A stretch of DNA of 34,963 nt from Chloroflexota bacterium (GTDB lineage: Bacteria > Chloroflexota > Dehalococcoidia > Lucifugimonadales > UBA3495), in the NCBI GenBank assembly GCA_028875055.1, contig JAPPGG010000017.1, forward strand, positions 1-34,963, in the 5' to 3' direction. The position numbers and the translations under genes are program-made. Below are positions 859 through 31,716 of this stretch, piece by piece (within the stretch, counting starts at the first letter, position 1; the number at the start of each line of letters is the position of its first letter). The notes under the pieces were generated by a model, which was not told the origin of the DNA, ran no database searches, and saw only the letters and a list, made by a program, of their open reading frames with translations.

Positions 859-2352
859 ATGGTACTGGACGTATCTACCGCCGCCGGGGCAATGACCGGA
901 GCCCGCTACATCGAGAGTCTCCGGGATAACCGGGAAGTATGGCTGGACGGTGAGAGGGTGTCCAGCATACCCGACCATCCGGCATTCCGGGGCATGGTCA
1001 AGGAACTGGCCCGAATTTACGACCTCCAGCGCACGGAAGAATACCAGGACCAGATGACCTTTGTTTCCCCGGAAACGGGCAACCGCTGCAGCTACTCGTG
1101 GCTGCTGCCCCGCTCGGCCGAGGACCTGAAGCTCAAGCGGCGCAACAGCGAAATCTGGAACGAGCAAAGCTGGGGCCAGCTGGGCCGCAGTCCCGACATC
1201 CTGGCGCCCCACATTACGGCCCTCTATGCCATTCGCGATTCGCTGGGTTCGGTAAAGCACCCCAGGTGCGACTTCGGCGAGAACATTGCCAATTACCACC
1301 GCTTTTGCCAGGAGAACGACCTGTTTCTCACCCATGCGTTGGGCGATCCGCAGGTGGACCGCAGCCAGCAACCTCAGAACGAGCAGCGCAACATCATCGA
1401 AGAAGAACTGGCCCTGCACGTGGTGGAGGAGACCAGCGAGGGTGTCGTAATCACCGGCGGCAAACAGCTTGCCACCGCCGCGCCCATCAGCAACGAGTGC
1501 TATGTGTCCCTTTCCGCCACATTCCTGCGGCGTTCCGACCCCAAGTGCGTTCTGGCTTTTTCCATTCCCACCGATTCGCCAGGCATGAAGATTCTCTGTC
1601 GCGAGCCGGTTTCTCACGGCTATGGCGGGTTTGGCCATCCCCTGGGCCTGAACTACGATGAACAGGACGCGATGCTCTTCTTCGAAGAGGTCCTGGTGCC
1701 CTGGGACCGCATATTCATGCTGTACGACTCTTCGCCCCTGGTGGCCCACCTGACCCGGCGCACCAACTTCCAGGGCTGGCCCAACCTGGTGCGCATTCAT
1801 CATCGAATGCAGCTGATGACGGCCGTCGCCACCCTCATCGCCGAGGCCATCGGAGTGGTCGAGTACCGGGAGGTTTCCGCCAAGCTGGGCGAGATGGCCA
1901 CCTACACCGAAATGTGGCGCCACTCCATGGACGGCATCGAACACAACGCCTTTCTCACTGAAGACGGCCTGATGTCTCTCGGCGATATGAACGCCATGAA
2001 TATTTTCTTTTCCCAGATGTCGTCCAGGATGGTGGAACTGCTTCGTGAAATAGCCGGGTCCGGAATAATCATGCAGCCCAGCGAGAGGGACCTGGCCAGC
2101 CCCGACCTGCGGGTGTACCTGGACAGGTACATGCGAGGCAAGGGTGTGGACGTGGAGTACAAGTCCCGCCTGTTCCGGCTGGCGCATGACCTGGCGGTGT
2201 CATCTTTTGGGATGCGCCAGGAAATTTACGAGTACTGGCACGGGGGCGACCCGAATCGTAACCGGATCAATCTCCTTCGCAACTATGACCAGGCCGGCGT
2301 CACCGAGCGAATAAAGGACATGCTGTCCCGTCCCCTCTCCAGCGAAGGCTAG
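859..2352 (+). CDS. hpaB: 4-hydroxyphenylacetate 3-monooxygenase oxygenase subunit (HpaB/PvcC family)
   Basis: This 497-aa protein matches the family length and its landmark motifs: 'TGARYIESLRDNREVWLDGE' near residue 13, 'THALGDPQVDRSQQP' near 154 and 'VPWDRIF' near 281. HpaB enzymes use FADH2 supplied by a separate reductase (HpaC) to ortho-hydroxylate phenols, for example 4-hydroxyphenylacetate to the catechol. The family has an acyl-CoA-dehydrogenase-like fold and acts in the cytoplasm. The start is fixed by GGGAGG at 847-852, 6 nt before the ATG. No flavin reductase gene lies next to it. Relatives such as PvcC or chlorophenol monooxygenases act on other phenols, so family membership is secure but substrate assignment is not. 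Confidence 0.92.
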   Translation: MVLDVSTAAGAMTGARYIESLRDNREVWLDGERVSSIPDHPAFRGMVKELARIYDLQRTEEYQDQMTFVSPETGNRCSYSWLLPRSAEDLKLKRRNSEIWNEQSWGQLGRSPDILAPHITALYAIRDSLGSVKHPRCDFGENIANYHRFCQENDLFLTHALGDPQVDRSQQPQNEQRNIIEEELALHVVEETSEGVVITGGKQLATAAPISNECYVSLSATFLRRSDPKCVLAFSIPTDSPGMKILCREPVSHGYGGFGHPLGLNYDEQDAMLFFEEVLVPWDRIFMLYDSSPLVAHLTRRTNFQGWPNLVRIHHRMQLMTAVATLIAEAIGVVEYREVSAKLGEMATYTEMWRHSMDGIEHNAFLTEDGLMSLGDMNAMNIFFSQMSSRMVELLREIAGSGIIMQPSERDLASPDLRVYLDRYMRGKGVDVEYKSRLFRLAHDLAVSSFGMRQEIYEYWHGGDPNRNRINLLRNYDQAGVTERIKDMLSRPLSSEG

Positions 2353-2453
2353 CTCCTCTGGGCGGGCATACGGACTGGCCTGCCGCGGTCTTTGGCTCCT
2401 CGGCGAGACGGCCCCGGGCCGGTGCCACGGCCGGCCGCTGGGCCAGCTAATGT

Positions 2454-2483
2454 TTGTCCCTGAAAGGTGACGGATGATATACT
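2454..2483 (+). promoter_or_regulatory. promoter of the cation antiporter gene
   Basis: TTGTCC (2454-2459) and TATACT (2478-2483) are 18 bp apart, and a TG at 2475-2476 makes an extended -10. The predicted start is near 2490, about 39 nt upstream of the ATG at 2529. Confidence 0.5.
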
Positions 2484-2528
2484 CGACTCCGCAAAATTAC
2501 TTACGGGTTCGGGGCATGCTTATCTGAT

Positions 2529-3902
2529 ATGGGTGAAACTTTCAATATCCTGACTTCTCCTCTCTCGCTGTTCCAGGCAGGAGCAGGCGAGATCAGCGAA
2601 ATCCTCATCGTTCTCCTTATCCAGGTCGCCATCATTCTCGCCGCTGCCAAGGTCGCGGGGGAACTGGCGAGCCGATTCCTGAAAATACCCGCAGTGCTGG
2701 CCGAGCTGGGCGTTGGCGTAGCCATCGGGCCCTTCGCCCTGGGCGGCCTGTCCTTCTATGGTATCGGGCCCCTGTTTCCCATACCCCTGATAGACGGAAA
2801 GCCCGCGCCCATACCGGTGGGCAATGAACTCTACGCCCTGGCTCAGATAGGCTCAGTGGTCCTGCTCTTTGCCATTGGCCTGGAGACCAACCTTCGCCAG
2901 TTCCTGAAGTACGCCGGTCCCGCAACCGCCGTGGCCATCGGGGGCGTGGTCCTTCCCTTTGCCCTGGGCGCCGGAGCCACCGTTATGTTTGGGTTCGACG
3001 GCGGTGGAGGCTGGACGTCGCCCCAGGCCCTGTTTATGGGAGCTATACTGACCGCCACTTCCGTGGGAATCACGGCCCGCGTACTGGCCGACCTGCACCG
3101 CCTGGACGACCCCGAAGGCGTGACCATCATCGCCGCGGCGGTGGTGGACGATGTCCTGGGCATCATGGTTCTGACCGTGGTGGTGGGGATCAGCACGGTG
3201 GACGACTTCACTCTGGGCACCCTGGGCTGGATCAGCTTCAAGGCCATTGGCTTCTGGCTGGCCCTGACGGTGGTCGGCATCCTGGTGGCGCCATACCTGG
3301 AGAAAATTCTCGAAAAATTCAGCTCGACCAGCGCCCTGATGTGCATTCCCCTGGCGCTGGCCCTGCTGGCAGCGGGGCTCGCCGAACTGTTCGGCCTGGC
3401 CTTCATCATCGGCGCCTTCTCCATTGGCCTGGCGCTCTCCACCACCCGCCTGGGGCACCTGGTGGAGGCGGCCATGCTGGGGATAGTGGACTTCCTGGTG
3501 CCCGTGTTCTTCGTGGTGATGGGAATGCTGGTGGACGTGACCTCCATGCAGTCAGGCTTAGTCTTCGGACTGGTAATCTCGTTGCTGGCCATATTCTCCA
3601 AGGTTGTAGGGTCCGGAGGTCCGGCCCTGGTGAGCGGGTTCAATATGCGGGGAAGCACCCGCATTGGCGTGGGCATGATGCCCCGTGGCGAAGTGGCCCT
3701 TATCATCGCCGGTATTGGGCTCTCGAGCGGAATAATCGGCCAGGACCTGTTCGGAGTCAGCATCATGATGACGGTGATCACCACCCTGATCGCCCCGACC
3801 ATCCTGGTGCCCTTGTTCCGCTCCGGCGGCAGCGGTGTGCGGCGGATTGCCAGGGAAGAGCAGGAACAGGCAATGGCCGCGGTGGAAGGCGCGGAGGACT
3901 AG
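2529..3902 (+). CDS. CPA2-family cation:proton antiporter (Kef/NapA-type membrane domain)
   Basis: This 457-aa polytopic membrane protein has about 12-13 hydrophobic helices starting near residue 24. The helix motif 'AAVVDDVLGI' places the paired aspartates D207-D208 that carry ions in electroneutral or electrogenic CPA2 exchangers. The later 'MPRGEVALIIAGIGL' carries the conserved Arg-Gly-Glu. The protein ends about 30 residues after the last helix, so the RCK/TrkA nucleotide-binding domain of KefB/KefC is missing and it resembles the transport core alone. It would exchange Na+ or K+ for H+ across the inner membrane. The start has only a weak ribosome binding site, and the next gene lies 88 bp downstream. 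Whether the ion is Na+ or K+ cannot be decided here. Confidence 0.88.
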   Translation: MGETFNILTSPLSLFQAGAGEISEILIVLLIQVAIILAAAKVAGELASRFLKIPAVLAELGVGVAIGPFALGGLSFYGIGPLFPIPLIDGKPAPIPVGNELYALAQIGSVVLLFAIGLETNLRQFLKYAGPATAVAIGGVVLPFALGAGATVMFGFDGGGGWTSPQALFMGAILTATSVGITARVLADLHRLDDPEGVTIIAAAVVDDVLGIMVLTVVVGISTVDDFTLGTLGWISFKAIGFWLALTVVGILVAPYLEKILEKFSSTSALMCIPLALALLAAGLAELFGLAFIIGAFSIGLALSTTRLGHLVEAAMLGIVDFLVPVFFVVMGMLVDVTSMQSGLVFGLVISLLAIFSKVVGSGGPALVSGFNMRGSTRIGVGMMPRGEVALIIAGIGLSSGIIGQDLFGVSIMMTVITTLIAPTILVPLFRSGGSGVRRIAREEQEQAMAAVEGAED

Positions 3903-29298: not shown

Positions 29299-30138
29299 AT
29301 GCCAGATATTCTTGACGCCAAGGCATCAGGCGCCCGACGCTTTGAGGGAAAGGTGGCCGTGATTACGGGCGCCGGTCAGGGCATAGGCGCGGCCACCGCC
29401 CGGCGGTTGGCCCAGGAGGGCGCATCCGTAGTCATCGGTGACATGGTCGAGGAATCTTCGCAACGAGTGTGCGACGAATTGCGGGATTTCGGAGCCGAGG
29501 CTGCCGTCTGCCTGGGTGAGCTTTCCAGGTGGGAAAACGCCGAGCGCCTGATGGCTTTTGCCCAGGAACAGTTCGGCCAGATTGACGTGCTGGCCAACGT
29601 GGCTGGAGGAACCATCTGGTTCCAGTCCTACCAGTATTACACGCCCGACCAGATTCAGGCCGAAATAGACAAGAGCTTCTGGACTGCCATGTGGTGCTGC
29701 CGGGCCGTGCTGCCCTACATGATTGAGCAGAAGTCCGGTTCGATTGTCAACGTGGCCACCCACGCGGTAACCGGCGCCTTCCGAGTGCCCTACGCCGCGG
29801 CCAAGGCGGGACAAATCGGATTGACCACGTCTTTGTCTCGAGAGGTGGCGGGCCTGGGCATCAGGGTAAACTGCATGGCCCCCAGTGGCACCCTGGCGGA
29901 GGACCGCGTTACGCCACGCAACTATGGCATTACCGCAATGCCCCCTGAATTGCCGCCGGAAGAACTGGACCTGCAGGAAACTTACCGGCAGCAGACCCGC
30001 CTTTCCGAAATACCCATGGGCCGGCGCGGCGAAGCGGACGAGCAGGCGGCGGCCATAGCTTTCCTGGCTTCTCATGACGCATCCTATATAACCGGGCAGG
30101 TCCTGGCAGTGGGCGGGGGACAACCATATCCCTTCTGA
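29299..30138 (+). CDS. BenD-like SDR (dihydroxycyclohexadiene carboxylate dehydrogenase type)
   Basis: This 279-aa classical SDR has the cofactor loop 'TGAGQGIG' (23-30), catalytic Y165 and K169 in 'VPYAAAKAGQIGL', and 'GIRVNCMAPSGT'. The segments 'LANVAGGTIWFQ' and 'IDKSFWTAMWCCRAVLPYMI' closely resemble benzoate cis-diol dehydrogenase (BenD/XylL), which oxidises the cis-diol made by a ring-hydroxylating dioxygenase to a catechol. The Ser position is Ala153/Thr154, a modest departure. A Rieske oxygenase follows 129 bp downstream, which supports the pairing. GGAGGGG at 29290-29296 lies only 2 nt before the ATG, an unusually short spacing. The exact substrate is not established. Confidence 0.88.
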   Translation: MPDILDAKASGARRFEGKVAVITGAGQGIGAATARRLAQEGASVVIGDMVEESSQRVCDELRDFGAEAAVCLGELSRWENAERLMAFAQEQFGQIDVLANVAGGTIWFQSYQYYTPDQIQAEIDKSFWTAMWCCRAVLPYMIEQKSGSIVNVATHAVTGAFRVPYAAAKAGQIGLTTSLSREVAGLGIRVNCMAPSGTLAEDRVTPRNYGITAMPPELPPEELDLQETYRQQTRLSEIPMGRRGEADEQAAAIAFLASHDASYITGQVLAVGGGQPYPF

Positions 30139-30267: not shown

Positions 30268-31716
30268 ATGGGCCTCAAGCGACTGCTTTTGAAACCTCTC
30301 TCCGGCTACCCGGGCGGCTACAAGAACATGCGACGCGGCACTCAGGGCTTCGACCAGACGCCGCCTTTCCGAAAGCCTGATGATCCGGACGACCGGCGCA
30401 GCCGAATGCCGACCACGGGATTCAGGGAGTACTGGTATCCCGCCCTGCCGGACAAGGACGTAACGAAGGGCAAACCGGAAGTGCTGCGGATGCTGGGCAC
30501 CGATGTGGTCTTCTTTCGAGACAACAACGATGAGGTGCAGGCGCTGCTGGACTGGTGTCCCCACCGCTCGGTTTACCTGTCGATGGGCCGCTGCTATTTC
30601 CCCGGCTACGTTACCTGTCCCTACCACGGGGCCACCTTCGACGGTGAGGGCAACTGCGTGGCATTCCTTACCGAAGGGCCCGAGTCCAAAATGGTGGGCG
30701 CCCCGGGCATGAAGGCCCGCAAATTCCCGACCGCCACCATCAAGGGCCTGGTATTTGTGTGGATGGGCGAGGGCGAACCGGTAGATCCGCAGGAGGACAT
30801 CCCGCCGGAAATGTTCGAGGAACACAACATCCACCGGCCGGTCTTCTCCATGTTCGATTGCAACTGGGTGCTGGTGCTGGAAAACACCATGGATGCCCAT
30901 AACGCATTCATGGTGCACCGCAACGCCATTCGGATATTGAAGAGCCGCCTGGGAGGACGTCCGAGGACGCCCCTGGGTTACAGGGTGAACCTGGTCAACA
31001 ACAAGACGGTCCACTACCAGCCTGGGCGGGGAAAGTCCAGCGTAGAGCGCTATTACTACGACGAAGACGGAAACATCCCTTACCAGATGTACTACCCGGG
31101 CGTGGACGGTGTCTGGCCCAAGACCAAGTGGCGGCTGATGTGGACCTGGATATTCGACCGGAAGGCCCGCAAGACGGGACAGGCTCCGGGACGGGTGCGA
31201 CCGGCCCAGGCAGACACCCCCGGGGTCAACGAGTGGAACGGCACCCGTTTGCCCGGGATGTCTCGCACCGGTGGCAACAACGCCTTCTTTCGCAGCACCC
31301 GCTGGGCTGTCCCGGTGGAGGACAACCTGACCCGCATGGTGTACCTGAACGTGGAACGCTACAGCAGGAAGCCCAACGCTCTTCGAAGGCTGTGGAGTTC
31401 GGTTTCCTGGCCGTACCGCAACTGGGAGCTGAACTTCAACTTCCGCAATCAGGACTACGACGCGGAGAAGTACGTTCAGTACGAGCTTCCGGAGTATCTG
31501 TCCTCCACCGACTCGGTGGTTGTGGCCATGCGACGCCTCTTCGTGGAACACAACCGCGACGTGATGCGCCGGAGGGAGCACGAGGAGGAACTGCCCGAAA
31601 GGCTGGAAGAGACCACCGCCGAACAGATGGTCCGGGAGGGCGACGCCCGCGTGGCCGAGTCCGCCGAGGCCTTTGACGTGGACAGACTCCAGGAGGAGTT
31701 GCTGAGAAGGGTTTAG
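30268..31716 (+). CDS. Rieske non-heme iron oxygenase, oxygenase component
   Basis: This 482-aa protein has a Rieske [2Fe-2S] domain with ligands C97, H99 ('WCPHRSVYL'), C117 and H120 ('TCPYHGATFDG'). After it, 'LENTMDAHNAFMVHRNA' (205-220) marks the mononuclear iron centre. The canonical motif is DxxHxxxxH; here it reads D209-A-H211-N212-AFMV-H217, so Asn stands where the first iron His is expected, with His one place earlier. The C-terminal tail (about 415-482) is long and highly charged. The domain order and single subunit resemble the phthalate/vanillate-type oxygenases. No ferredoxin or reductase gene lies alongside. GGAGG before the ATG supports the start. Confidence 0.9.
   Translation: MGLKRLLLKPLSGYPGGYKNMRRGTQGFDQTPPFRKPDDPDDRRSRMPTTGFREYWYPALPDKDVTKGKPEVLRMLGTDVVFFRDNNDEVQALLDWCPHRSVYLSMGRCYFPGYVTCPYHGATFDGEGNCVAFLTEGPESKMVGAPGMKARKFPTATIKGLVFVWMGEGEPVDPQEDIPPEMFEEHNIHRPVFSMFDCNWVLVLENTMDAHNAFMVHRNAIRILKSRLGGRPRTPLGYRVNLVNNKTVHYQPGRGKSSVERYYYDEDGNIPYQMYYPGVDGVWPKTKWRLMWTWIFDRKARKTGQAPGRVRPAQADTPGVNEWNGTRLPGMSRTGGNNAFFRSTRWAVPVEDNLTRMVYLNVERYSRKPNALRRLWSSVSWPYRNWELNFNFRNQDYDAEKYVQYELPEYLSSTDSVVVAMRRLFVEHNRDVMRRREHEEELPERLEETTAEQMVREGDARVAESAEAFDVDRLQEELLRRV

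Follow-up and report, generated by a model that had tools for sequence, protein, structure and literature searches.

The iron motif of the window oxygenase

Is the catalytic iron of a Rieske oxygenase held by an asparagine in place of a histidine, or has the ligand histidine only shifted its position in the sequence? The question is raised by a gene at positions 30268–31716 (+ strand) of the window, that is, of the whole stretch of 34,963 nucleotides analysed here, from a Chloroflexota bacterium (contig JAPPGG010000017.1). Its 482-residue product is identified as a Rieske oxygenase alpha subunit by Pfam: PF00355 matches with 64.7 bits against a cut-off of 20.3, and PF11723 (Aromatic_hydrox), a homotrimer model, covers residues 165–432 with 26.6 bits, barely above its cut-off of 24.4. 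The top solved relative is the oxygenase of carbazole 1,9a-dioxygenase, CarAa (PDB 1ww9 and others), with 92 bits for the single sequence and 130.7 with a profile. These last two matches, together with the nesting of the protein among oxygenases in the tree described below, indicate homology across both the Rieske and the catalytic parts. The signature of the alpha subunits of Rieske non-heme iron oxygenases, C-x-H-xn-C-x2-H, is read from the translation as C97-x-H99-x17-C117-x2-H120 (30556–30627, + strand), and the four [2Fe-2S] cluster ligands are intact, as an earlier note on this DNA had stated.

That note had also drawn attention to codons 205–218 (30880–30921, + strand), where the translation reads E205-N-T-M-D209-A-H211-N212-A-F-M-V-H217-R, exactly as it claimed, and thus D-x1-H-x5-H instead of D-x2-H-x4-H. 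A definition given in a passage of PMC5209329 is D-X2-H-X3,4-H-Xn-D, whereas the window protein has D-x1-H-x5-H-x178-D, with an Asp-to-His offset of two residues as against the canonical three; it is therefore classed as a variant relative of the Rieske oxygenase family and not as a canonical member. The bridging aspartate is described as universally conserved and essential in a passage of PMC5033481. Among open-licence PMC papers, no report of an H-X5-H or D-X-H motif in Rieske enzymes was found.

Farther along the protein, the segment QDYDA (residues 395–399; 31450–31464, + strand) contains D396, which profile alignment places on D333 of CarAa, whose iron ligands are H183, H187, and D333 according to a passage of PMC3423008. 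Because of this correspondence, and because it is kept in all 35 rows of the H-x5-H class introduced below, D396 is the putative third, carboxylate ligand. CarAa and the window protein are alike in their Rieske domain, in the Asp-His-His order, and in an alignable third-ligand region, but CarAa has D-x2-H-x3-H and its type of iron motif is not found in the window protein.

Conservation and distribution

The spacing is a conserved variant and not a sequence error. A scan of named genomes returned 21 loci, with identities between about 50% and 98% and assigned by record title to Chloroflexota, SAR202, and Dehalococcoidia metagenome-assembled genomes, and all 21 carry D-A-H-N-x4-H. Close homologues with DxxHxxxxH, which the earlier note had named as the sign of an error here, were not found. 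Profile matches, among which D-x1-H-x4-H relatives are also counted, were obtained in 38 of 250 genomes of the window's order (at E 1e-40 or better) and in 7 of the 400 genomes of a phylum sample. No close relative was found on viral contigs, which yielded distant oxygenases only, and the nine clearest of these all have the canonical H-x4-H spacing. On plasmids, 395 records match the query, none of them at 80% query coverage; among the matches listed (15 places), all are below 40% identity.

When the fetched loci were searched with a profile, 150 hits resulted, of which 112 remained once near-duplicates had been removed; with the query these make 113 rows, which were sorted according to the motif spacing counted backwards from the aligned H217. 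Thirty-six rows are D-x1-H-x5-H (35 plus the query), 36 are D-x1-H-x4-H, and 37 are D-x2-H-x4-H, the remainder being one D-x2-H-x3-H, two H-x4-H rows without the Asp, and one row without H217. Column counts were made on 35 H-x5-H rows, with the window's own copy in and the query row out. Residues E205, N206, D209, H211, H217, D396, and D415 are invariant in these 35 rows, as are C97/H99 in the 33 and C117/H120 in the 34 rows covering those positions. Residue 212 is Asn in 34 rows and Val in one, L124, whose motif is D-S-H-V-G-F-M-V-H; this is a full-length protein with an intact Rieske motif, encoded by a draft genome that is 60% complete. At each of D209, H211, N212, and H217, both synonymous codons occur, with 29 CAC and 6 CAT for H211 and 28 AAC and 6 AAT for N212, so that selection appears to maintain these last two residues.

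Sequence error or misassembly was ruled out by the 21 of 21 loci, by occurrence in many genomes, and by the synonymous codon changes. A broader alternative, that we are dealing with a catalytically dead oxygenase-like protein or else with an error, could appeal to the departure of the motif from its published definition; it is scarcely credible in the face of a full set of candidate metal ligands that are invariant in the clade and of a gene conserved across many genomes with synonymous changes.

Which residue corresponds to the canonical ligand

Two possibilities had been set out in the earlier note: either the register is shifted so that H211 binds iron, or the centre is altered, with Asn in the ligand place. 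Its premise, that a gap-free alignment to DxxHxxxxH sets N212 under the first histidine, holds. Direct profile comparison of H-x5-H with D-x2-H-x4-H rows has no gaps and sets N212 opposite the canonical His, and both MAFFT and the profile alignment to CarAa do likewise. The nearest relatives outside the H-x5-H clade are Chloroflexota oxygenases 36–41% identical to the window protein (e.g. the G179 rows L057 and L056:6982), which share its D-x1-H and are its tree neighbours, with one residue fewer between the histidines; they read ENGGDAHVPYVHR, with D-A-H-V-P-Y-V-H, i.e. D-x1-H-x4-H. When hhalign is used, H211 falls on the first His of these rows, with one inserted residue after H211, and that His, preceded by a one-residue gap, falls in turn on the canonical His. 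Since the His spacing of the D-x1-H-x4-H rows is normal, one would expect the ligand to be their first His, though their Asp-His distance is one residue short. Gap-free alignment would misplace N212 under the ligand His because the two one-residue length changes cancel.

In a tree of 79 rows (34 of the 113 being omitted as near-copies, fragments, or very distant), from which the motif columns 207–218 had been removed, the 23 H-x5-H rows are all united in a single clade with SH-aLRT 100, the only kind of support given by the quick method used. This clade is nested in a 41-row D-x1-H clade (SH-aLRT 98), all other members of which are D-x1-H-x4-H. The monophyly of the H-x5-H rows suggests that the residue between the two histidines was most likely gained in a single event. 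In an ancestor, the stretch from the bridging Asp to the first His would have been shortened by one residue (D-x2-H to D-x1-H); later, and once only, the stretch from the first to the second His would have been lengthened by one in the clade of the window protein (H-x4-H to H-x5-H).

It is the first of the two possibilities that stood, backed by the D-x1-H-x4-H intermediates, by the tree, by the invariance of H211, H217, and D396, and by the relative with Val212. H211 is very probably homologous with the first ligand histidine of canonical members, and N212 a conserved neighbour, the present arrangement having come about by one loss and then one gain. As judged from sequence comparison, this ligand assignment is well supported, the iron centre would probably be an ordinary two-His-one-carboxylate site reached by a shifted register, and N212, being nearly invariant, probably matters. 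Evidence against assigning H211 as the ligand comes from the gap-free alignments, which favour N212, and from the fact that N212 is broken in one sequence only, that of the draft genome.

The second possibility, that N212 has taken the place of His at the iron and the centre is Asn/His/Asp, with altered chemistry, draws on the same gap-free pairing in the direct profile alignment and on the retention of N212 in 34 of 35 rows. The intermediates, however, set H211 on the ligand His, H211 is kept in 35 of 35 rows, and the Val212 protein is otherwise intact. Starting from the intermediates, an asparagine ligand would moreover call for an insertion and about four substitutions, as against one insertion, and we regard it as improbable.

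AlphaFold2 gave a mean pLDDT of 31 for the window protein with 19 relatives from the named-genome scan, and of 49 for window residues 40–445 with nine relatives and eight distant viral-contig oxygenases. In the latter model, most of the Rieske domain is at about 72–85 and the catalytic domain mostly at 24–45. Neither model is reliable enough to place H211 or N212.

Geometry of the iron site

With H211 taken as the ligand, a refinement that overlaps with this reading can be considered, namely that H211 and H217 both bind iron and that the extra residue forms a bulge altering the iron geometry or the Asp209 bridge, resulting in unusual catalysis. A spacing that arose once and has been strictly kept since would be consistent with such a bulge, as would the position of the nearly invariant N212 next to the insertion and the Asp-to-His distance, which is also one residue short in the clade. 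By contrast, carbazole dioxygenase binds iron with the pair H183/H187 (H-x3-H), as a passage of PMC3423008 has it, so that the His spacing can vary without loss of ordinary dioxygenase chemistry; a functional bulge is possible but unlikely. Equally tentative is the fuller proposal of a single-origin Chloroflexota clade in which a bulged H-x5-H, a shortened Asp-His bridge, and the conserved Asn212, as a new second-sphere residue, would jointly make O2 activation or the transfer of electrons depart from textbook Rieske chemistry.

Gene neighbourhood and proposed reaction

The gene upstream (29299–30138, + strand) ends 129 bp before the oxygenase start and encodes a BenD-like SDR dehydrogenase of 279 residues. 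Its top NCBIfam matches, PRK12823 (272.9 bits) and BenD (266.7 bits), are both under cut-off, the BenD equivalog NF040811 requiring 380 bits, and its PDB matches include TsaC. The Tyr-x3-Lys is retained. At the usual catalytic Ser position, near relatives of the window SDR have Thr (NVATHA or NIATHA), and more distant ones have Ser (e.g. GSH, GSN). An SDR match within 1.5 kb of the oxygenase occurs in 22 of 35 H-x5-H rows, compared with 7 of 36 D-x1-H-x4-H rows, where a BenD-like SDR is seldom adjacent, and 2 of 37 D-x2-H-x4-H rows. Among the 22 is L084, whose SDR match is a 65-residue piece on the opposite strand at a distance of 1.2 kb. Four of the 13 H-x5-H rows without a match (L017, L022, L023, and L114) are truncated upstream by a contig end, and the other nine have flanking sequence but no SDR. 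Among the near relatives of the window protein, most carry a BenD/TsaC-like SDR next to the oxygenase gene. Depending on the row, the SDR is located upstream or downstream of the oxygenase. On its other side, the window oxygenase is followed by two luciferase-like monooxygenases encoded in the opposite direction.

In the reaction that we propose, electrons from NADH would reach the Rieske cluster (C97, H99, C117, H120) through a reductase or ferredoxin encoded elsewhere, and would pass via D209 to the iron of the neighbouring subunit, where activated O2 would hydroxylate the substrate, probably an aromatic or cyclic compound. The adjacent SDR would then oxidise the alcohol or diol product, with NADH being returned. 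Both the substrate and the SDR step are only conjectures drawn from the neighbouring genes and from known pairs. In the genes scanned next to the oxygenase, no electron-transfer partner was recognised; the one NAD_binding_1 reductase found in this genome is on a different contig. TsaM/TsaC is a precedent for an oxygenase–SDR pair returning NADH, according to a passage of PMC10579966, and in this pair and in BenD-type pairs, as in the window, the oxygenase adjoins the SDR. The window SDR differs from BenD-type SDRs by its score under the equivalog cut-off and by the Thr of its near relatives.

Other unusual Rieske oxygenases

Several other variants were noted among the loci. Two adjacent Rieske oxygenases of L061 (G179:C6; 1694–3190 and 3314–4567, + strand) have Gly instead of the bridging Asp (ENTAGGHAQMIH and ENVGGGHASMLH) with both His kept, and they are grouped together in the tree. 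In L071 (G114:C17; 332–1543, + strand), the Rieske motif is intact, the iron motif reads SLDPDSEWLQ with both His lost, and KHVMW is found at the expected place of the third ligand; this homologue adjoins a canonical oxygenase (1732–3054) and is possibly a triad-less partner subunit. L051 (G020:C4; 1456–2616, + strand) has a CarAa-like D-x2-H-x3-H (DFSHAYLHR) and a very long tree branch. Finally, G231, G247, and G360 (G231 and its relatives belong to f85, of the same phylum) each have more than 100 first-look candidate Rieske oxygenase places.

Significance for the lineage and the enzyme family

A passage of PMC6946804 describes an expansion of ring-hydroxylating dioxygenases (RHD; COG4638) in SAR202, with 365 RHD alpha subunits and most copies in group VII, and presents the lineage as one thought to degrade recalcitrant organic matter; the window protein shares the marine SAR202 lineage and the broad enzyme family with this expansion, though the passage makes no mention of the iron motif. 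Ring-hydroxylating dioxygenases are also reported from sponge Chloroflexi in a passage of PMC6306507. Screens using D-X2-H-X3,4-H, the definition taken from the passage of PMC5209329, would miss or misread the H-x5-H clade, and its case illustrates that a conserved metal ligand may pass for a mutated one when two one-residue length changes cancel each other. Should the site turn out to have an altered geometry, the clade would constitute a natural test of how far a Rieske iron site can vary with O2 activation retained.
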